This document shows, one piece after another, positions 18,642 through 56,059 of a stretch of 64,000 nt of DNA. The position numbers and the translations under genes are program-made. The DNA comes from Patiria pectinifera (lineage: Eukaryota > Echinodermata > Asteroidea > Valvatida > Asterinidae), in assembly GCA_029964075.1 (NCBI GenBank), contig CM057135.1:44244457-44308456 (forward strand). Direction: 5' to 3'. The first letter of the stretch is position 1. The number at the start of each line of letters is the position of its first letter. The notes below the pieces were generated by a model that worked only from the letters and a program-made list of their open reading frames with translations, ran no database searches and was not told the origin of the DNA.

Positions 18642-18650
18642 TTCTGAATC

Positions 18651-20504
18651 ATGCCACTCTCTAACTATTCCAAGTGGCAAGAAATAGGTGCGTCGCCTAC
18701 TGTTATTAGTTGGCTTCAATGCGGTGTTACACTACCGTTTACCACTGACCCACCGGTGATTGAATTACCTAACAGAAATTTTGCTAGTGATCAAATAACA
18801 TTTTTGAATAGTGAGATTAAGAACTTGCTTCAGAAAGGTATTATTGCCAGATGTGCCTTTAAACCTAGAGTTGTCTCTCCACTGAATGTGGTACCGAAGA
18901 AGGGCAAAAATAAGTGGAGACTTATTATTGATTTACGTGTTGTGAATTCTTACATTGATGCTCCCAAGTTTTCTAACGAGAAAATTGACATTGTTTATTC
19001 ATTAGTGAAGAGTGAGGACCAGTTAATTACGATTGATCTCAAGGATGGGTTTTATCATGTGCCTGTTTGTGAATCTCATCAAACCTTCCTAGGTTTTAAA
19101 TGGAATCATAATTATTATTGCTGGACCAGACTGCCATTTGGGTTAAATGCCTCACCTTACTTCTTTGCAAAAGTTTTGCGACCGGTTCTTGAATATGTTA
19201 GGGTCTGTGGTTTACGTGCAGCCCTGTTTGTTGATGACTGGTTACTTGCGGCATCCCCAAGTAATATTGCTGCTCAATCAGACTTCTTAATTGCCACTCT
19301 TGAGGATCTTGGGTGGACAATTAATTATGACAAATCCTCATTGGTACCTGAGCAAACAAAATTGTGGATCGGGTATAATATCTCAACCTGCCCGGGCACT
19401 GTGCCAACAATATGCATTCCTCAAGAGAAAACGCGAAAACTCCGGCGCGACATTCAGCGGGCGCTACGAAAACCAACCATACAAGCAAGGGCCCTTGCAC
19501 GCATAGCCGGACAGTGTGTGTCTATGGCACAGGTGATCTTACCTGCAAAACTGTTGCTTCGCAATGTGTACAGGGTCATTGCAACCAAGACTTCTTGGCA
19601 CGACAGTCTGAAACTTACGCCAGCAGCAATAAAGGACCTACAATGGTGGCGCGAGGCCCTAAACAATTGGAACCACACTCCAATACAGCGACGACCTGTG
19701 GAACTTCAAATGTTTACCGATGCATCGTCCACAGGTTGGGGAGCATGGATCCTCGAACAAAAAGCAGCAGGTTTTTGGAACGAAAGGTTGAGCAACATGC
19801 CCTCCAATTATCGCGAAATGTGTGCAGTACTTATGGCACTTCATTCGTTCCTCCCCACAGTAAAGGGGAAGTCAATCGAAATTGTGTCCGACAACATCAG
19901 CACGGTGGCCTACTTGAACCATCTCGGGGGCCCGGCACAGGACTTGTCAGATATTTCAACAGCGATATGGGCATTAGCTTTTCAACACAATATTGCCATC
20001 ACCGCACGATATTTAGCAGGCCGGGACAACAGTTTGGCCGATGCCCTCTCCCGACTCAACCCGCGGTACGAATGGCGACTTCACACGGGTCTCTTCCAAT
20101 GGCTGGACAGAAAATGGGGCCCTCACACCATCGATCGCTGTGCAACAATCCTCAACACACAGCTACCCCGCTACAACAGTCGCTTCTTCGATCCGAGATC
20201 GGAGGGAGTGGATGCTATGGCTCAGAACAATTGGGGGTCGGAAAACAATTATGTAAACCCACCTTTCCGACTCTTCCCAAAAGTGATAGAGACACTCAAG
20301 CAGCAACACGCAACAGCAACATTGATCACACCATGTTGGCCAGCACAAATCTGGTATCAAACGCTTCAAGAAATGTCAATAGCGCCACCCATATCCCTCC
20401 CAAACTCAAAACGGACTGTGTGGTCAGTGGGAGTAAGACCAGAACCACTAAAGAATGCCCACTGGCAACTTATGGCTTGGCGAGTGTCTGGAGCAGTCAC
20501 TTAA
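18651..20504 (+). CDS. Ngaro-like reverse transcriptase and RNase H
   Basis: The 617-residue protein makes and processes element cDNA. The reverse transcriptase occupies about residues 60-290: WRLIIDLRVVN, ITIDLKDGFYHVPV, LPFGLNASPYFF and the catalytic LFVDDWLLA, the DIRS-type box. RNase H follows at about 350-465 with MFTDASSTGWGAW, REMCAVLMAL, IVSDNISTVAYLN and DALSR. The C-terminal region with YVNPPFRL and LITPCWPAQIW resembles the segment of DIRS proteins near their methyltransferase-like motif, but I do not claim that activity. No internal stops. It overlaps the recombinase frame, so a frameshift or internal start must produce the latter. Confidence 0.93.
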   Translation: MPLSNYSKWQEIGASPTVISWLQCGVTLPFTTDPPVIELPNRNFASDQITFLNSEIKNLLQKGIIARCAFKPRVVSPLNVVPKKGKNKWRLIIDLRVVNSYIDAPKFSNEKIDIVYSLVKSEDQLITIDLKDGFYHVPVCESHQTFLGFKWNHNYYCWTRLPFGLNASPYFFAKVLRPVLEYVRVCGLRAALFVDDWLLAASPSNIAAQSDFLIATLEDLGWTINYDKSSLVPEQTKLWIGYNISTCPGTVPTICIPQEKTRKLRRDIQRALRKPTIQARALARIAGQCVSMAQVILPAKLLLRNVYRVIATKTSWHDSLKLTPAAIKDLQWWREALNNWNHTPIQRRPVELQMFTDASSTGWGAWILEQKAAGFWNERLSNMPSNYREMCAVLMALHSFLPTVKGKSIEIVSDNISTVAYLNHLGGPAQDLSDISTAIWALAFQHNIAITARYLAGRDNSLADALSRLNPRYEWRLHTGLFQWLDRKWGPHTIDRCATILNTQLPRYNSRFFDPRSEGVDAMAQNNWGSENNYVNPPFRLFPKVIETLKQQHATATLITPCWPAQIWYQTLQEMSIAPPISLPNSKRTVWSVGVRPEPLKNAHWQLMAWRVSGAVT

Positions 20505-21505
20505 AACTGTTGAACTGGTCACCAAGGGCCAGCTCACAATGCATACTCAGCTGGGCGCCTACTACCCTGCGTGTATATGACCGCCAATTACAGAGACTTC
20601 GCAAATTTTGTGTGGAAAGACAATTGCAGTATCCACCATATGACACTGCCACATTAGCAGAGTTTCTGTGCTTAGTGGCGGACTCATCCCCAAAGCCACG
20701 GTCAGTTTTGCGTAGCACCATGGCTGCCTTGACAGCCCTTTATCAGGCTTCTCCAGGCAAGAACAATCCGACAAACTCTGCTGAGCTTCATAGACTGATT
20801 ACCGCTCTTGAAAAGAGTGGTACCACTGCTCCAATGACACGTTCATCTGTCATGCCAATACAGCCTTTTGTCAGTCTCTTCCAATCTTGGGGTGACAATG
20901 AAGGACTGGACTTAAAGCGTCTACGCTTGAAAGCAATAACGCTCTTGACACTCGCGGTTATGGCGAGGCCATCCGACCTTGCACCTAAGGGTGTACTGTT
21001 CAACGAAAATGGACCTAGCGAGCCTATGGTTATGCGCAAAAGTCAGCTTACTTTCCACGAGAACGGAACACTGTCAATCCAGTTCTTCGGGATCAAGAAT
21101 GACATTCACCGTAAAGGCTTCTCAGTTACCATCCCAGCAGCGGACAATCAGTGGGTGGACCCAGTCTCTTGCCTGCACACTTACATCCGCAAATCCCACA
21201 CCCATCGGCTGTTATGCAAGGATGACCCACTGTTCGTCACTCTTAAGAGACCATACGGAGCATTGTCAGCTGGATCAATTGCAGATCAGCTTAATTCCGC
21301 TATAGGTCTGGCTGGACTTGGGGGGCGGGGTTTCAGTGCAAAATCCTTCCGACCCACAGCAGCTACAGTTGCAATTGACACAGGCTGTGATCCTGATGTA
21401 GCCAGGAAAATTGGACGCTGGGAATGCCCAGCAGTGTTCTATGACCACTATATTCACTCCAACACTCCACAAAACGTTCTTAATAACTTGTTTGGTCATA
21501 AGTGA
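20333..21505 (+). CDS. Ngaro-like tyrosine recombinase
   Basis: The recombinase integrates circular cDNA. The open frame reaches back to 19412, but that part lies antisense-free under the RT frame, and domain homology starts near 20520; I chose the ATG at 20333, giving 390 residues. The N-terminal helical domain contains TLRVYDRQLQRLRKFC. Catalytic blocks are TLAVMARPSDLA (first Arg), then SFRPTAATVAIDTG (second Arg, with Lys in place of the usual His of H-x-x-R) and IGRWECPAVFYDHYIH with the nucleophile Tyr. Frame is minus one relative to the RT frame, so minus-one frameshifting near 20440-20500 is an alternative to internal initiation. Confidence 0.88.
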   Translation: MLASTNLVSNASRNVNSATHIPPKLKTDCVVSGSKTRTTKECPLATYGLASVWSSHLKLLNWSPRASSQCILSWAPTTLRVYDRQLQRLRKFCVERQLQYPPYDTATLAEFLCLVADSSPKPRSVLRSTMAALTALYQASPGKNNPTNSAELHRLITALEKSGTTAPMTRSSVMPIQPFVSLFQSWGDNEGLDLKRLRLKAITLLTLAVMARPSDLAPKGVLFNENGPSEPMVMRKSQLTFHENGTLSIQFFGIKNDIHRKGFSVTIPAADNQWVDPVSCLHTYIRKSHTHRLLCKDDPLFVTLKRPYGALSAGSIADQLNSAIGLAGLGGRGFSAKSFRPTAATVAIDTGCDPDVARKIGRWECPAVFYDHYIHSNTPQNVLNNLFGHK

Positions 21506-24300: not shown

Positions 24301-24407
24301 TGAGTAAAAGAGTTGTATTTCCTGACCCTGAAAATGTATGTTTTGACACCTAGACTGTGATTTGATATGGGGTAGTTGAGCTGCGATATCAGTAAATGCA
24401 ATTATTA
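24301..24407 (+). repeat. Left part of a satellite unit split by the TIR element
   Basis: CCTGACCCTGAAAATGTATG here matches 28870-28905 and, inverted, 63740-63775. The unit resumes at 28780 after the 24408-28779 insertion. Confidence 0.6.
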
Positions 24408-24634
24408 GTCCGTGGGACGAGGCCTTTTTTTCGCTCGTTACGCGATCTGGTTTTCCGAATTTTGTCTAATATTTCTCATTCCATTGATCAAAAATAGAAA
24501 GCGCTAACAAACCACGTTCCCGCATTCGTGGGTGGTTTGGGACTTCACAAATGAATTTTAATTAACATCAAATTCGAGGTTACAGCCAAAAAATCGTTAG
24601 ACAAATATAACGCCCGAGAGAGGATAAAAATCAA

Positions 24635-24697
24635 CCAATAACGTGCAAGGTTTGTGTTGCGTCGCCAAAGAACCAATCAAATTGCACGTTCTATATA
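24635..24697 (+). promoter_or_regulatory. CCAAT boxes upstream of the element-borne gene
   Basis: CCAAT occurs at 24635 and 24673, and a weak TATATA at 24692. The TATATA is too close to the ATG at 24721 to be a normal TATA box for it, so only the CCAAT pair is suggestive. Confidence 0.3.
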
Positions 24698-24720
24698 CGT
24701 CCACAAGAGGCGAGTCCAAC

Positions 24721-27523
24721 ATGGCATCGTCCATGTCGTCGGAAGCAAGTACCGAGTCCGAGACCGCAGCGGAGACAGAAGGTGAAAATGCTCCAAAATC
24801 ATCAGTTCAGTGTCTCATGCACTTTCCGACTGGAAAGGGTGAAGTGCAGTTATTTACGGAGCACAGCTGGTCACGTTTCCTTGAGTATACCGACGTCTGG
24901 AAGGCCTTCACAAAAGGACCGCAAGCCGAGATAGCAAGGGCCAGGGCCAAGGCAGTTCATCGCCAAAACATGCGCTACGTCAGCCGGTGCAAGTGTTGCT
25001 ACGGATCAGCATGATCAGCCCGTCAGTATGCGGTTGCAATCTCACGATCCTAGAGAATGCCGGTCATCATCGGTGAGATACAAATCATACACTTCCCTCC
25101 ACTTCGAGATTGTGTAATATAAATATCTAGTAACCTACCATCATGTCCATGACCAGATGACTTGACTATTTTATGATCATGATGATCGAGATAAAATAAG
25201 GGCAAGGGCATTAAGGGGGGGGGGCTCTGAAAATTCATGGCATAGGGGGGCCTGCATGCACAGTACATGTAGATTTTTATGCCTTCCTAAAACTACTAAA
25301 GCCCCTGTCACACTCAGGGGTGTGAAATCTCAGCTTTAAAGCTGATTTCAGCTTTTTTTTGTTTTGGATTTCAGCTTTTTTCCATTACTTGCTGTGTACA
25401 AAAGTATAGGAGATTTCCAGACTTCAGCTATTTTACACCTTTTTCAGTTATTTTCAGCTATTTTTATCTGTGGTCACTCACACCCCTGCACACTACGTGG
25501 AGCCTCATAGTTCTAGGAGTAACCTTTGCCATGTTTGCGTATCCTAATTCCTTATGAGTTCCTTATCAAATTTTTTCAATACGCAGCCGTACGCTCAAAA
25601 CGTCGAATTGTTTTGATTACTTTGACTTATGTGCGACGCACATCTAGCGTACAAGTAACGAATTCAGCCCATCCATTGCGTATGAGATGCGTATGTGTTG
25701 CGTATGCAGTGCACAGCGTTATTTTTTGGGCTACGAATAGGTCAGTATGCAGTGAGCATGCCGAGTGTATTCCGGATGCACCCGACTTATGCCGACCGCA
25801 TGCTTGACGCACTTCTGAGCGTATTCCCGCCGCATTTCCGCCGCTCGCCATCCAGCATGCGTTTCATCTGCGCTGCAAGTACGCTATGTATACGTCCAAT
25901 ACAGGCGGCTCATGTGCAGACAGGGTGCGTCACGAACACATAGCGTACTCGTAACGCACTCGACCGATGTGGGACCGATGCGCTGCGTATTTATAACTTA
26001 TGACCTTCGTAACAGCGTACGCAGCGTAGTTTTGTGCATGCCCAAAACTATCCTGCGTACTGGGCCGTACCATGCGTATATCTGCGTACATAAAACCTAC
26101 ACAAAACGATAGAGATGCATATCAGGTGCGTATTGAGCGTACGACTGCGTATGAAAAAAATGTCAATGCGCAACTCATAAGGAATTAGGATACGCAGAAG
26201 TGTGACAGGGCCCTTAAATGCAGTCAATGATTGTGTATAAACGTTAGTGAACATGTTCTGATGTTAGTGCCTTGCAATTGTGTAGTCATGGTAGGCCTAT
26301 TGGTCATGTTGGTGCTATGTAAATGTAAACCTCCACATTTTTTTTCTGTATAGGTCATGCTACAGTCAGTACACTGACAAGTCCAAGGTGAAGAGAGCAG
26401 TTCAAGCCCAGCAAAAAGAGAAGTCTAAAGTTGCAGGTACATTTTATTTGTATAGAAACTGCTGCTTCCATTTCTATTCATTAACAAATTTGGTAACCTT
26501 CATGAAAAAAAAACTGCAGTGGGAGGATGGTGTGATAAACTTATACAAGTATATTTGTGAGGTGCTGTTGATAATCTCCCTCCCCCCAGAATTTATCTGA
26601 TGTCTGTAACTAAGTTACACTGGAAAACTGTTGTCATATAGTTCAGTTCAACCAGTGTCCATGTGAAATGTATTTTGTTTATGAAAAGACAGTCCAAAGA
26701 GTTTAATGTATCTTTTGAAACTTTTACTTTTAGCTATAAAAACGCAATGTACGTGTAACGTAGGGAGGAAAGGGAGTCCACCTGGGCTAGTGTACCATCC
26801 ACAAATATATACATGGCCATGTACATGCACATGTGTATACCAGTATTAGGCCCAAGAACTGATAACTTTCTTTCCATTTATTTGTAATTTGGAAGAAGGG
26901 GAAGGTTTTAATGTGTACTGTTGTTTACCCTCCCCAACCGACACCCCCCCTCCAAAAAAAAGATAATCTCACAAATTTAAGGAAGAAACATGACATATAC
27001 CCTCCTGATTTTGTTTATTTGAGAGCAACACAACATTTTCATTGAAAAAATGGCCTTATTTCAATAAATACAACCAAATAAATGTTAATTACATGTAAAC
27101 AGTTGAATAAGATTGTATTTTCTGTTTCTCTACTGTATTCTAGAAACTGAAACAGCCAAAAAGGTTCCACACCCCCCTGTGAAAACGAGAAGACTCCGTT
27201 CAGCCACGCAAACGGTTTCCAAGACTGCAGCAAGATCACAACATGTTTTTCCCAAACAGTGCATCCTTTGCAGGAAGGAGAAGTGTGTGACCTGCCGAGT
27301 CACAAGGAAGAGGAGGCAAGAACCCCTGGTCACATGTACTACCCTACAGGCTGAAAGATTGCTACAGGCGGCGGAAGACAACAACAATGAAGAACTTCTT
27401 ATGCACATTGTCAATTCCAAAATGGATGTGCTCAGAATTGTTTCGGTGCATTTGTGTTATTGCTCTTATTGTTTCTTGTATTTGACACTTATACATGTAC
27501 TGTAATTGCAGAAATTCAACTGA
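24721..27523 (+). CDS. Spliced gene of unknown function inside the TIR element (predicted exons)
   Basis: Predicted exons are 24721-24986, 26354-26436, 27144-27445 and a tiny 27512-27523, all with GT-AG borders and matching phases, giving about 220 residues. The start has a good context (CAACATGG). The N-terminus is Ser/Thr/Glu-rich; residues about 30-75 hold CLMHFPTGKGEVQLF and EHSWSRFLEY. Across the first junction the protein reads MRYVSR then SCYSQYTDKSK, resembling the H-x-SCY-x-x-YT motif of a large uncharacterised invertebrate protein family. Later come a Cys cluster (CILCRKEKCVTC) and AERLLQAAEDNNNEELL. If the last splice is not used, the frame ends at 27505. I do not assign a function; DNA or zinc binding is a guess from the cysteines and basic residues. 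Confidence 0.6.
25300..26214. mobile_element. Harbinger-like MITE in the first intron of the element-borne gene
   Basis: Ends are inverted (AGCCCCTGTCACACT at the left, AGTGTGACAGGGCCCT at the right) and flanked by TAA on both sides, the three-base duplication of PIF/Harbinger elements. A longer inverted block, TGCGTATCCTAATTCCTTAT, lies inside each end. The body is rich in GCGTACG-type words. It is non-coding. Confidence 0.8.
25315..25488. mobile_element. Small MITE nested in the Harbinger-like MITE
   Basis: Ends CAGGGGTGTGA and TCACACCCCTG are inverted repeats, flanked by a 6 bp duplication CACACT at 25309-25314 and 25489-25494. The interior repeats TTTCAGCT. The ends look hAT-like, but the duplication is shorter than the usual eight. 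Confidence 0.78.
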
Positions 27524-28779
27524 GGAAGTGCCATTGCATTGGTGTGGTCAGAATAATTGATATCTGTGAAAACGCATTTGTGTTTGTTTACAAACTGGCA
27601 TTTAGAAAACTTATTTTTGTTTTAATTTCTTTTTCATGAAGGCTGTTAACCAAATTGGCAAACAGATACATGTAACACTGCATAAGGTGTGTTTGAAGTT
27701 GTATTAAACCCTTGTGAATGTTTGATGTGGTGTATATTGGGATTTGGGGAATGGATAGGGCCAAAAAGGAAATAATTGGTTGTATCGTCGTTTAAAACAG
27801 AATTTCAAGAAACAAATGTATACATGATGGTTTTGAATCCAAGTTTTTACCTAAAGTGGAATGCCTGCACACCTTAAACAACTTTTGTAAAGTTATCTGC
27901 TACTGGAAGCTGTTCTTTTGGGGCTCTTTCTTCTGGGGAGGATCTTTGTCATTTAATTTGGAATACATTAACTCATCCTGTTTGAGGTACCTGCCGTCTT
28001 TACTCAAATTGTTCATTCAAGAAAACAACACTAACTGATTAAGATTTTTCCATCTGTGTATTTCTTTTGGCTGAATGCAGTATGTCATGTACAGCACATC
28101 CAAGTTGGAATAAAAAAGTTATAGAAACAGTATTTGGATCGTATTTGTTATTTATTGTTTCAAATCGTTCTTATCAAATTTAATCTAAATTTAAATCAAT
28201 TTAAGTATGACACCTGCCCCATATTAATGATGATCATGCGTTTCAGCTAACTTAAGCAGCCATTTAGAGAAGATTGACTGATTTACAATTTTTGTGGGAT
28301 ATCATAACGAAGCAACTTGCAAGTTCTGGGGCTCATGGGTTTTACACATTATTCTTTCATAAAGGCTTGTCATTTACAAGATATTTTATAATATAAGGAA
28401 CTCCCTGGTTATTTCAAATTTAAATTAACTGTAATAATCATCTTGCTTTAGAAATGATTACAAATAAAAAGGCTAGAATCTAACATTAAACAAATGTTCA
28501 GCAAGACGGGCGAACCCGCCTCGTGCGCGCATGCATTGCGTGTAAAATGTATATTTGCTGTGTCAAGAGAGGGCTCTATTTCTTTCTTTTTTCTCATGCA
28601 CAATTCGTGCGTGTTTTTGTCGTAGAATTTCTCATTCCCGAACAATTCTTGGACCGGGGAACAACGTTTTTCTGATATGGTACACCATAATCTACATATC
28701 TGGCAAGTTTTATAAAATTCGGTGAACCAGATCGCCTATCTCGAAAACTAAAGCGTTTTCGGGCTCTCGTCCCACGGAC

Positions 28780-29015
28780 TATATTATCTGGCGGTCATCT
28801 TCAAAATCAAAAATGGCCACAATAGTGTACAAACTGACCATTTGACACTGTCATAAGCGGTATAGTTGCATTCCTTGACCCTGAAAATGTATGTTCGGAT
28901 GCCAAAATGTTAATCCTAAGTGGCTTAGAAGAACAGATATTGGTAGATGTAGGTTTTCAGATGTAGGTTTTGGTAGCAACCAATGGCTCATTTCATTGGC
29001 TGAGATACTATCATC
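28780..29015 (+). repeat. Right part of the satellite unit split by the TIR element
   Basis: It contains GACCATTTGACACTGTC and GCATTCCTTGACCCTGAAAA, which recur inverted at 63740-63810. Confidence 0.65.
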
Positions 29016-45001: not shown

Positions 45002-45009
45002 GACGGTCG

Positions 45010-46306
45010 GCCCTCGCGATTCACAACCACATACCAGACAACAGCGTCCCCAGGGGGGACCCGGGCAGGTTTCATGTCGACCTTCTTCTTAAAACCCCTC
45101 AACAAGTTCATACGTCCGAAACGTTTCCGCATGGAAACGTTACGGACCATTCTCGAATCGATCATAACGCCAGCGTGGGCGGCCAGTATAGACTTGAAAG
45201 ACGCGTACTTTCATGTACCGATCAGGCCGGAGCACCGCAAATTCCTACGTTTCCAATACAAAAATATACTGTACGAATTTGTGGTGCTCCCGTTCGGGCT
45301 GTCCACTTCTCCGCGGGTGTTCACCCGGATCATGAAGACGATCGGGGCGGCACTGCGGCGACGAGGGATCATGATTTTCATGAGTCCACCGGAGGAGCGC
45401 CTGCTGAACCTTCGGCAGTGCGTGTCCATCTTCCTCCCGACGTTAGTGGCTCCGGCCCGAGCCTGGCTCAGGCTGCTGGGCCTTATGGCCAGTTTGGTGG
45501 ACTTAGTGGATTTTTGCAGGTTGAGAATGAGGCCAATTCAACTTCACCTGCTTTCTTTCTACAGACCCCGCTGGCACCCGATCGACCATCCGGTGCCCAC
45601 TACGTCTTGGCTAGTCCCCCACCTTCGTTGGTGGCTAGTCGAGGCCAATTTAACGCAGGGCCGCGTTTCCGCCCGCCCCGCCCGTCGGTACTTATCACGA
45701 CCGACGCGTCAGGGTACGGCTGGGGGGGCTACCCTCCACCCCCGACAGGTCGCGGGCGTATGGGGCCCCGAACATCAATCATCCCACATCAACGTCCTCA
45801 ACGTCACCAACGCCCTAAAACATTTCCAGTCGGACGTCAGAGGGCAAGCAGTCCTGGTACGATGCGACAACGCCACAGTGGTGGCATACATCAATCACCA
45901 GGGGGGCACTCGGTCAGGCCATCTGTGCGCACTAACGTGGGATCTCACTCTCTGGTGCATACATCACGGGATTGCACTGTCGTCAGTCCACATCCCAGGC
46001 GAAGAGAACCACACAGCCGACGCTCTCTCCAGAGGCTGGATCGCCCCGACAGAGTGGTCACTGCTCCCACAGGTGGCTCAGTCGATCTTCCAACTAATCG
46101 ACCGGCCGCATGTGGACCTATTCGCGTCGCGAATGAACAATCAGCTACCGATCTACTGCACGAGGGGCCCAGACCCCAACGTGTGGCAGACTGATGCGCT
46201 GTCGGTACAGTGGGACGGCCTACTGGCCTACGCCTTCCCACCCATCTCCCTTGTTTCTCGAGTGCTGACCAAGATCGAGCAGGAGGATTGCCGAATTCTC
46301 CTATAG
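45010..46306 (+). pseudogene. DIRS copy A reverse transcriptase and RNase H, active site deleted
   Basis: The frame 45074-46306 shows LNKFIRPKRFRMETL, SIDLKDAYFHVPI and VVLPFGLSTSPRVFTRI. It then runs from RRGIMIFM directly into SPPEERLLNLRQ. Copy B has about 60 residues here, including the region that normally holds the YxDDW catalytic box, so copy A has an in-frame deletion of the active site. RNase H is split between frames: TTDASGYGWGG near 45700 in one, then VRCDNATVVAYINHQGG and GEENHTADALSRG in the other. The tail LIDRPHVDLFASRMNNQLP is typical of DIRS proteins. It cannot make cDNA. Confidence 0.85.
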
Positions 46307-46328
46307 CCCCATTCTGGCCCCGCCAGCC

Positions 46329-47503
46329 GTGGTTTCCCCGGCTCGTCCGACTCTTGGTTCACCGCCCGGTAATTCTACCGAGGAGGGCCGATCTCCTTTA
46401 TCAGCCCAGCTCGGGAATCAGTCGTCAGGCTCCGGGGGATCTTCATCTGACGTGCTGGGTATTGTCACGCGATCCCTCTGCTCAGCAGGCCTTTCGCGAC
46501 GAGCTGCAACAATTACAGCCCAGTCCCGCAGAGCCTCAACCCGAAAGGTGTATGATAGCAGACTACGCCATTTCTTTAAATGGTGTAGACGGCAATCCAT
46601 TCATCCCCCCAATACTTCTGTAGGGGAAGTGGGGGATTTCCTCCTATACCTTTTTAACAGTGGGCTCACGACAGCCACGGTCAAAAATTATCGATCGGCC
46701 GTTGCCGCGATCCATCAGGGATTTCCGGATGGTTCCTCCGTTTCCGGCAACCCTGCAATTAGCCAACTGATCAAGGGGATGTTTAATACTCGTCTCCCAG
46801 TACGCACATTAATTCCATCTTGGGACCTCTTCAGTGTACTATCTACACTGGCGAGGACTCCTTTTGAACCAATGAATTGCTCAACTTTGTTACAACTCTC
46901 CATCAAAGTAGCTTTTCTATTGGCTGTCGCTACGTCCCGACGACGTAGCGAACTACACTCGTTATCGATGCAGACAGGACACATCCGGTGGGAACCGGAG
47001 GGTGTCCGCCTGATCCCTACGGCCGGTTTTCTCACAAAGAACCAGTCAGAGACCTTTACGCCCCCGGACATCTTTGTCCCAGACATCAAGTCTTTTTCGA
47101 ACGAGACAAACGACAAACTTTGGTGCCCAGTTCGAGCACTTAAGTGGTATGTCAACCGTACGAAGTCACTTCGTACGGGACACGACAAATTGTTCATCAC
47201 AACGACCCCGCCCCATGGGCCGGCGTCCCGCGATACAATCACTCGCTGGATCGTGACAGCTATCCGTTCGGTACCGGGCGGCTGGCCAGCGACCCAGGGA
47301 CCCATTCGAGCACATGAGGTCAGGGGAGTGTCCACCTCGTGGGCCTTTTTTAAGGGTGTCCCCCCTAGGTGACATCGTCCAGGCAGCCTGCTGGAAGAAC
47401 CCTAACACGTTCTCCGAATGCTACCTGAAGGATGTCCTCCAGGCAGATGGCAAGGCTGGAAGAGAAGTGTTACTGGCGGCCAGTCGAGCCTCACGGAAGC
47501 ACT
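46329..47503 (+). pseudogene. DIRS copy A tyrosine recombinase, one frameshift
   Basis: The main frame (46329-47372) carries STRKVYDSRLRHFFKWC in the N-terminal DNA-binding domain, SRRRSELHSL with the first catalytic Arg, CPVRALKWYV and AHEVRGVSTSWAFFKGVP with His-x-x-Arg. A one-base change in a C-tract near 47358 ends this frame, and the catalytic Trp and Tyr follow in the next frame (AACWKNPNTFSECYLKDVL, to 47503). Only this shift separates it from an open gene of about 390 residues, so its loss looks recent. The enzyme would insert circular cDNA by recombination. Confidence 0.87.
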
Positions 47504-54586: not shown

Positions 54587-55941
54587 TCACTTGTTATAAA
54601 AGTTAACTGGTCTGTGGAAATGGAAATGCTGAATGGACGATGATGTTGCATTGTTAATATTGAAGTTGGACTCACTGAGTGTGAGTTGCTCCTGGGAATT
54701 GGTAAGTAGATGATCCAACTCCAGTCTGTCATTGTTCTGAGCCTCCTCTTCTTGAAGATTTTCCAAAGACTCCTCTTCCTCTGCAGCAAGGGTGGGATCA
54801 GTTTCCTGCATTATGGATGCAAGGCAGGCACTCATTTGTTTCTTTTTCTCATTGTTAGTACGAACATAGTGCTTTAGTGAAGATTCAGCTTTGTGTCCAG
54901 TGACTGCCATGATGTCACGACTGGCGAATCCAGCTTCATCCAGCAGTGTCACTGTTGTAGCCCTCAGACTATGGTTGGTATATTTTGCTTTGCAACCTGC
55001 TCTTTCAGCGATGGTTTTCACCTTGTTGTTGAGTGTGTTGACTCCCAGTGGTGCCTTGGTGTACCACGGTCCCTGTGATGGAGCCTCCGGTCTGGGTCGT
55101 TGCCACATGCAATCAAACTCAGGGTTTAATACTTCCTTGTAGGCAAGAAATGTAGAAACCGGACATCCACTTGATCCTGGAATTTCATGCATGTGACCAC
55201 TGTATGTCTCATCTTCATTTTCTCGTCTTGCTTTTGTGAGAGTATCACGATGGATGATGCATCTATGATCTTGATCATTCTCAAGAATGAAGTCAGTAAT
55301 CTTCATTTCTCGCAGATTTTCCTTTCCTCGGTTTCCAAAGTACACCATAATGTCAATAAACACTTTATCCTGTAGACCCTGTGGTGTTGTAATGTCTAGG
55401 GATGAACTGATCTATCGTCTTTGCTGATAGGATCTTTATGTTTGACTGATCCCTTTCCTTCTTTTTTGAGTGTGACCATCAACGCTTTGTACACTGTAGT
55501 ACTGTCCACAAACAATTTAGCATCGTTTATATCAATGCCTCTTACCGACTTGAAATGGCGGTTAAGTCCGTAGCGGATGGCATGCATTGATTTCTTCGTG
55601 TACAGGGTGCCGTTTTCCCTTCTCAGTCCTGTGTAAAATCGTGACAAGAAGTTGTCCAGTTGTGAATCAGTTAATGCTTCAACAGATGTTCCTGTAAGTC
55701 TCGCAAATTCGTCTAATCGTTTGACTGCATATTTTATTTGTTTCTTTGTGTAAGCAGCGTCAGCATCACCAATAAGTTCTGATATTTCATCTTCTGTCAG
55801 GAGAACGAACGGTGCTTCTCGAGTAACGTCCGCCATTTTGCAACTAATTTTTGTGAAACGTAAACACCACAGTGCCACCATCGGCAACAGTGACAGTGCA
55901 ATGGAACGTCTAATCACAGTGCAATAGAACTTCCATTGCAC
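54587..55941 (-). pseudogene. Crypton (DUF3504-like) tyrosine recombinase, one frameshift
   Basis: Frames 55941-55396 and 55363-54587 (181 and 258 codons) form one recombinase. The N-terminal domain has KQIKYAVKRLDEFARLTG, FYTGLRRENGTLYTKKSM and GLNRHFKSVRGIDI, matching the core-binding domain of Crypton proteins and the related KCTD1/QRICH1/ZMYM domain. The catalytic part has YFGNRGKENLREM (first Arg), TNHSLRATTVT (His-x-x-Arg), VTGHKAESSLKHYVRT (second His and the Tyr nucleophile). A one-base shift near 55400-55415 separates the halves; the second frame can be read back to LDITTPQGLQDKVFID. The tail is acidic and disordered. The likely true start is MADVTREAP near 55835, after which the frame is clean. 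Confidence 0.88.
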
Positions 55942-56059
55942 TGCGCGCTGCGCGCCACTCGTGCGCCGTGCGTTGGTACAAATAATTCATGACATGTGAT
56001 CAACGATCCACCAATCAGATGACGGGGATTTATTCAGGTGTTGTATAAAGTATAATATC

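Follow-up and report, generated by a model that had tools for sequence, protein, structure and literature searches.

The stretch of DNA analysed, in the following the window, comprises 64,000 nucleotides of the Patiria pectinifera genome (C7:44244457-44308456) and holds an element with terminal inverted repeats (TIRs), inside of which an intron-containing gene of three exons is located (Table 1). The sequence GTCCGTGGGACGAG is found at the start and, in inverted orientation, at the end of positions 24408-28779 with TA outside each, and 14-mer and TA together read as a perfect inverted repeat of 16 bases overall; the TA could belong to the inverted repeat instead of a duplicated target. The perfect 14-bp ends with TA on both sides recorded in a first-pass annotation, made from the letters of the window, are confirmed, as is the second inverted block inside of them, besides which a separate nested insert was recognized in intron 1. 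A recognizable transposase, which the first-pass annotation had likewise not seen, was not found in ten open reading frames of the element searched against Pfam (E up to 1; best match Ada_Zn_binding with 15.8 bits versus a cut-off of 23), whereby profiles can miss unknown transposases.

Table 1. Features of the element in window coordinates.
Feature	Position	Strand	Basis
Whole TIR-bounded element, 4,372 bp, very probably non-autonomous	24408..28779	.	homologous, gene included, to 23 of the 30 end pairs fetched elsewhere in the genome
Left TIR, 14 bp, perfect	24408..24421	+	inverted repeat and genome-wide 14-mer match
Right TIR, 14 bp, perfect	28766..28779	-	inverted repeat and genome-wide 14-mer match
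TA outside left end, probable target-site copy	24406..24407	.	left TA in 30 of 30 fetched pairs
TA outside right end, probable target-site copy	28780..28781	.	right TA in all of the 30 fetched pairs but L051, which has TG
Inner extension of left TIR, imperfect	24424..24463	+	75% complementary to 28714-28753
Inner extension of right TIR, imperfect	28714..28753	-	75% complementary to 24424-24463, 40 nt
Right subterminal stretch, common in whole or part to gene-less families with the same ends	28534..28781	.	blocks of 72-90% identity, 42-256 bp, in L037, L039, L041, L042, L047, L051
Exon 1 from ATG	24721..24992 (donor GT in all 24 copies) or 24721..24986 (GT in window copy only)	+	copy comparison
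Exon 2 (SCYSQYT)	26354..26436	+	AG acceptor in 23 of 24 copies, GT donor in all 24
Exon 3, containing the Cys cluster (QCILCRKEKCVTC) and ending with TAA	27144..27505	+	AG acceptor in all 24 copies, TAA in 23 of them
Insert with inverted repeats nested in intron 1, ends AAGGGCCCTGTCACACT, TTAA-like target	25297..26216	.	present in 8 of 24 copies

Ends and copies in the genome

Since the end matches within the window (three with up to three mismatches) do not exceed those of shuffled sequences (mean 2.01), the ends are supported by their number across the genome and by their arrangement in pairs. In the genome of 613.5 Mb and 1,020 contigs the exact 14-mer occurs at 342 places, 171 on each strand, versus approximately 4.6 expected by chance on both strands by our own arithmetic and versus 0 and 3 places for the reversed 14-mer as a control, so that the ends are not confined to the window. 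From the first 100 of these 342 places, 30 pairs of ends that face inward at a distance below 10 kb (L031-L060) were selected by eye and fetched with approximately 300 bp of flank; four same-end loci arranged differently (L061-L064) were fetched as well. Every fetched pair combines one GGCC-type and one AG-type end, and TA is present outside both ends in the window and in all pairs except L051.

Homologues of the carried gene, sought inside other end pairs at the suggestion of the first-pass annotation, are present in 23 of the 30 pairs, which are homologous to most of the window element, all three exons included. The genome thus harbours at least 24 gene-bearing copies including the window (4.05 to 7.55 kb), each with exons 1, 2 and 3, of which exon 1 is shortened in L038, L049 and L056, exon 2 in L056 and exon 3 in L055. 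A further pair, L032 (1.0 kb), has kept 750 bp on the left, including an exon-1 region of 76% identity as its only exon, and the right end. The remaining six pairs (L037, L039, L041, L042, L047, L051) have the same ends around a different interior, in which the protein was not matched at E 0.1; they share 27-58 bp on the left and 42-256 bp on the right with the window element, the common left stretch stopping near 24463.

Between loci, the 300 bp on either side of the 24 gene-bearing copies show no relation except for two short matches, 83 nt at 75% (L036, L046) and 28 nt (L054, L057), and the copies consequently represent separate insertions. The element is real and multicopy, with the same TIRs at many separate loci. 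As pairwise substitution among the 24 copies has a median of 2.3% (range 0.3-5.4), the family is young, with L032 as an older relative. Flank matches within a locus comprise a 170-nt inverted one in L052 and one of 32 nt in the window, a direct repeat (91%) on both sides of the element at 24311-24342 and 28864-28895, 63 and 82 bp from the ends.

Two lineages can be distinguished by the different nested inserts that they carry. The insert in intron 1 looks TTAA-targeted, as the empty site in L033 reads CTACTTAAATG, while a different, foldback-like insert (GTCAGACAAGTCGACCGT...; approximately 1264-1882 of the L033 element) resides in intron 2 of 15 of the 24 copies; L056 carries neither. Window positions 25237-25335 (+), which span the edge of the intron-1 insert, reach 17.7 bits with the HDV-like CPEB3 ribozyme model (gathering score 35, E 0.42), a weak match that is probably due to chance; a search of the window with Rfam gave nothing at gathering score.

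Same-end loci of other arrangement were observed as well. On C6, L067-L070 have common flanks and represent one duplicated locus approximately 0.47 Mb apart, and on C7, L061 and L062 at 14.76 and 19.55 Mb, also with common flanks, are apparently an inverted duplicate pair. In L063 (C7:8362741-8369250) two right ends face outward approximately 5.9 kb apart with mirrored TA-flanks (tagtagcc / ggctacta), as if one insertion site had undergone inverted duplication.

Gene model and coding state

Of the four exons with matching phases proposed in the first-pass annotation, three phase-compatible exons are supported by the 24 copies, while a fourth was not found, a motif scan downstream of the exon 3 stop having given nothing exon-like. 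The first exon starts with its ATG 313 bp from the left end of the element and the frame of the third ends inside the element with the TAA at 27503-27505. An AATAAA at approximately 28111 would place a candidate 3' end of the transcript in its vicinity. Two donors for exon 1 are conceivable in the window copy. The GT at 24987, by which ...YVSR is connected to SCYSQYT, is confined to the window copy (GT in 1, GC in 20 and GA in 3 of 24 copies), and the GT at 24993, in frame and of the same phase, is found in all 24; the predicted products have 236 or 238 residues.

The encoded protein may, as proposed in the first-pass annotation, resemble a large uncharacterized invertebrate protein family. 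Searches with it gave no match at or above cut-off in Pfam or among PDB sequences: with Pfam (E up to 10 or 1) all matches stayed below cut-off, such as GASH with 12.4 bits of the 27 required and the zinc ribbon of Elf1 with 14.3 of the required 29.8, and the PDB sequence search delivered one match with an E value of 0.65 and none for exon 3. A search of viral contigs gave two pattern matches, of which none was confirmed, and a search of phages no match; in the papers searched, the 14-mer was not found as text, and the element was not found by title or abstract start.

An open frame from ATG to stop is retained in two of the 24 copies, the window and L059, and is broken in 22; read by majority, the copies still spell an open frame of 236 residues. 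With respect to the majority of copies, exons diverge by 1.07-1.73%, introns by 1.53-2.26% and the 5' and 3' parts by 1.13-1.15%, and the exons are hence not clearly slower. Changes present in at least two copies comprise 20 replacements and 5 silent ones, and singletons 63 and 25 respectively, two of them stops, versus a neutral expectation of 72% replacement. Purifying selection on the protein, looked for in the 24 copies by divergence and by the replacement to silent ratio, was thus not found.

Certain lesions are common to copies at separate loci, a 2-base insertion in exon 1 of L036, L043, L050 and L054 and another such exon-1 insertion in L048, L052 and L060. As each set forms a clade in the tree (support 0.70-0.88 and 1.00), lineages have most simply multiplied with a broken frame. 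The frameshift lists obtained by tool projection and with MAFFT differ by one copy, L054 missing from the projected list, and common frameshifts could partly reflect different alignment placement. As frameshifted lineages multiplied, the protein is not needed in cis and, judged from the sequence, the gene looks like a passenger in this element family. That the locus holds a non-autonomous multicopy TIR element which carries this gene as a passenger is consequently regarded as very likely.

Origin of the carried gene

The reading preferred here, with a probability of roughly 0.5, is that of a non-autonomous TIR transposon flanked by TA and moved in trans, with a captured intron-containing 5' part of a gene. 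The transposase would be supplied from elsewhere in the genome, perhaps by an element of the TA-inserting IS630-Tc1-mariner kind, and would insert the element at TA, whereby the 14-bp ends, the imperfect extensions and the right subterminal stretch are predicted to be the transposase binding sites. The interior would correspond to the 5' region of a gene, with its promoter side and initial exons including introns; an older element that had these ends but no gene may have acquired this segment from genomic DNA before the lineage of L032 (24% diverged) split off. Subsequently, the two insert-marked lineages multiplied to the separate loci at which they are observed, with the reading frame drifting in the unconstrained manner described above.

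Homology to the six gene-less pairs stops near 24463 on the left and starts near 28534 on the right, and the gene with its upstream part thus falls wholly into the family-specific interior. By analogy with Pack-TIRs, this would be expected from a gene-less element that took up intron-bearing genomic DNA; it would also fit an autonomous element from which the greater part of the coding sequence has disappeared. No coding remnant was recognized in the 1.28 kb after the stop, which slightly favours capture, and the carried gene part was probably captured. Against capture stand the age of the association of gene and ends, which extends to L032 with its 76% identity, and the open majority frame, which is also expected of a resident gene of the element.

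A second, possible though less probable explanation regards the element as a deletion derivative. An undescribed, autonomous transposon that targets TA and has the same ends would then be the source of the gene, of which the front was retained and the C-terminal part lost, and the full-length relative would move the copies. Gene and ends go together in 23 of the 30 pairs and did so already in the diverged L032, the gene starts close to the left end and its frame stops inside the element, and the proposed likeness to the invertebrate protein family would fit, if true. On the other hand, the 1.28 kb after the stop, where the 3' end of the gene might persist, is devoid of a recognized coding remnant and the frame lacks constraint. 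The three long same-end pairs (22-32 kb, one on C2 and two on C6), considered as the autonomous partner, are over the 1.4 kb read per end the same element with other DNA inside, beginning at element positions of approximately 536 and 812, or duplicates of one locus, as the two C6 pairs with their common flanks. The more specific proposition that the carried gene is the front of a transposase-side gene from an undescribed superfamily of TA-targeting transposons is considered doubtful.

Neither did the short pairs without the gene (1.5-2.5 kb) qualify as coding partners, since the protein remained unmatched in all six at E 0.1; nothing was recognized by eye in their open frames. The unpaired end L011 has approximately 137 bp of end homology only, with open frames of up to 126 residues.

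Far less probable is a third explanation, by which the protein of 236-238 residues is a working protein of the element such as a DNA-binding factor that helps its movement. The third exon is Cys-rich, the splice sites are conserved and the majority frame is open; against this, 22 of 24 copies are broken, frameshifted lineages still multiplied and the ratio of replacement to silent changes is neutral, although a working source copy acting in trans may yet reside among the remaining 242 of the 342 end places. The first-pass annotation had offered two alternatives, a transposon product and a captured host gene, both of which are possible, whereas the version with a working product does badly in view of the broken copies and the missing purifying selection. 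A family of segmental or tandem duplications without any transposon, in line with which some same-end loci are indeed duplicates of each other (L067-L070; L061 and L062), is contradicted by 24 copies which stop at the same TA-flanked ends within flanks unrelated but for the two short matches, and is hardly tenable.

The family combines numerous young copies with two marked lineages and an older relative, so that a single genome can suffice to trace where the carried gene came from and which transposase is behind it. Should the gene prove to be part of the autonomous partner of this transposon, an undescribed group of transposons could begin to be named from it. If the reading as an undescribed superfamily is true, a large set of uncharacterized invertebrate proteins would be transposon products and the ends described here the first diagnosed ends for such proteins.

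Comparison with known systems

Multicopy TIR elements with intron-containing gene pieces are reportedly rare in animals, a survey of 100 animal genomes listing 370 Pack-TIR elements and only four cases, from frog and alligator, that are multicopy (PMC8277862). Those elements likewise have TIR ends around non-transposase sequence; they differ in that a parental copy outside of the ends was required there (PMC8277862), and in copy number, with at least 24 copies among the places fetched here.

IS630-Tc1-mariner (ITm) transposases recognize and duplicate TA (PMC8533490). The TA outside the ends of the window element and of 29 of 30 pairs resembles non-autonomous ITm elements; unlike these, the window copy has no transposase found, and its ends begin with GTCC. 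The invertebrate Sailor/DD82E elements have ends usually beginning with GT or CC, a size of 1.38-6.98 kb and mostly 4-bp TATA target duplications (PMC8533490). Host range, GT-starting ends and size are alike; Sailor/DD82E was nevertheless rejected as TATA on both sides was seen in 0 of 30 pairs, with flanks counted by eye.

In the PHIS superfamily, ISL2EU duplicates AT and has a second, non-transposase ORF, while Spy inserts in AAATTT without duplication (PMC4482050). Both are eukaryotic TIR elements with AT-rich targets, as here, where the probable target differs in being TA with varied bases beyond; ISL2EU was rejected because outside the left end TA, and not an AT duplication, is found in all 30 pairs. 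By analogy, the Ds elements of maize form families with short common ends, different interiors and movement in trans (PMC3260210); it belongs to the plant hAT family and no homology is claimed.

Other elements in the window

Beyond the TIR element, the window contains, at 54587-55986 (-), a tyrosine-recombinase-like frame with a PF00589 match of 38.3 bits above cut-off and a DUF3504 match just under cut-off, which we take to be Crypton-like. At 18648-21505 and 45002-47372 (+), reverse transcriptase frames (PF00078) are each followed by another long frame, and matches to the N-terminal domain of phage integrases under cut-off were noticed at 46269-47372; both elements are presumably DIRS-like.
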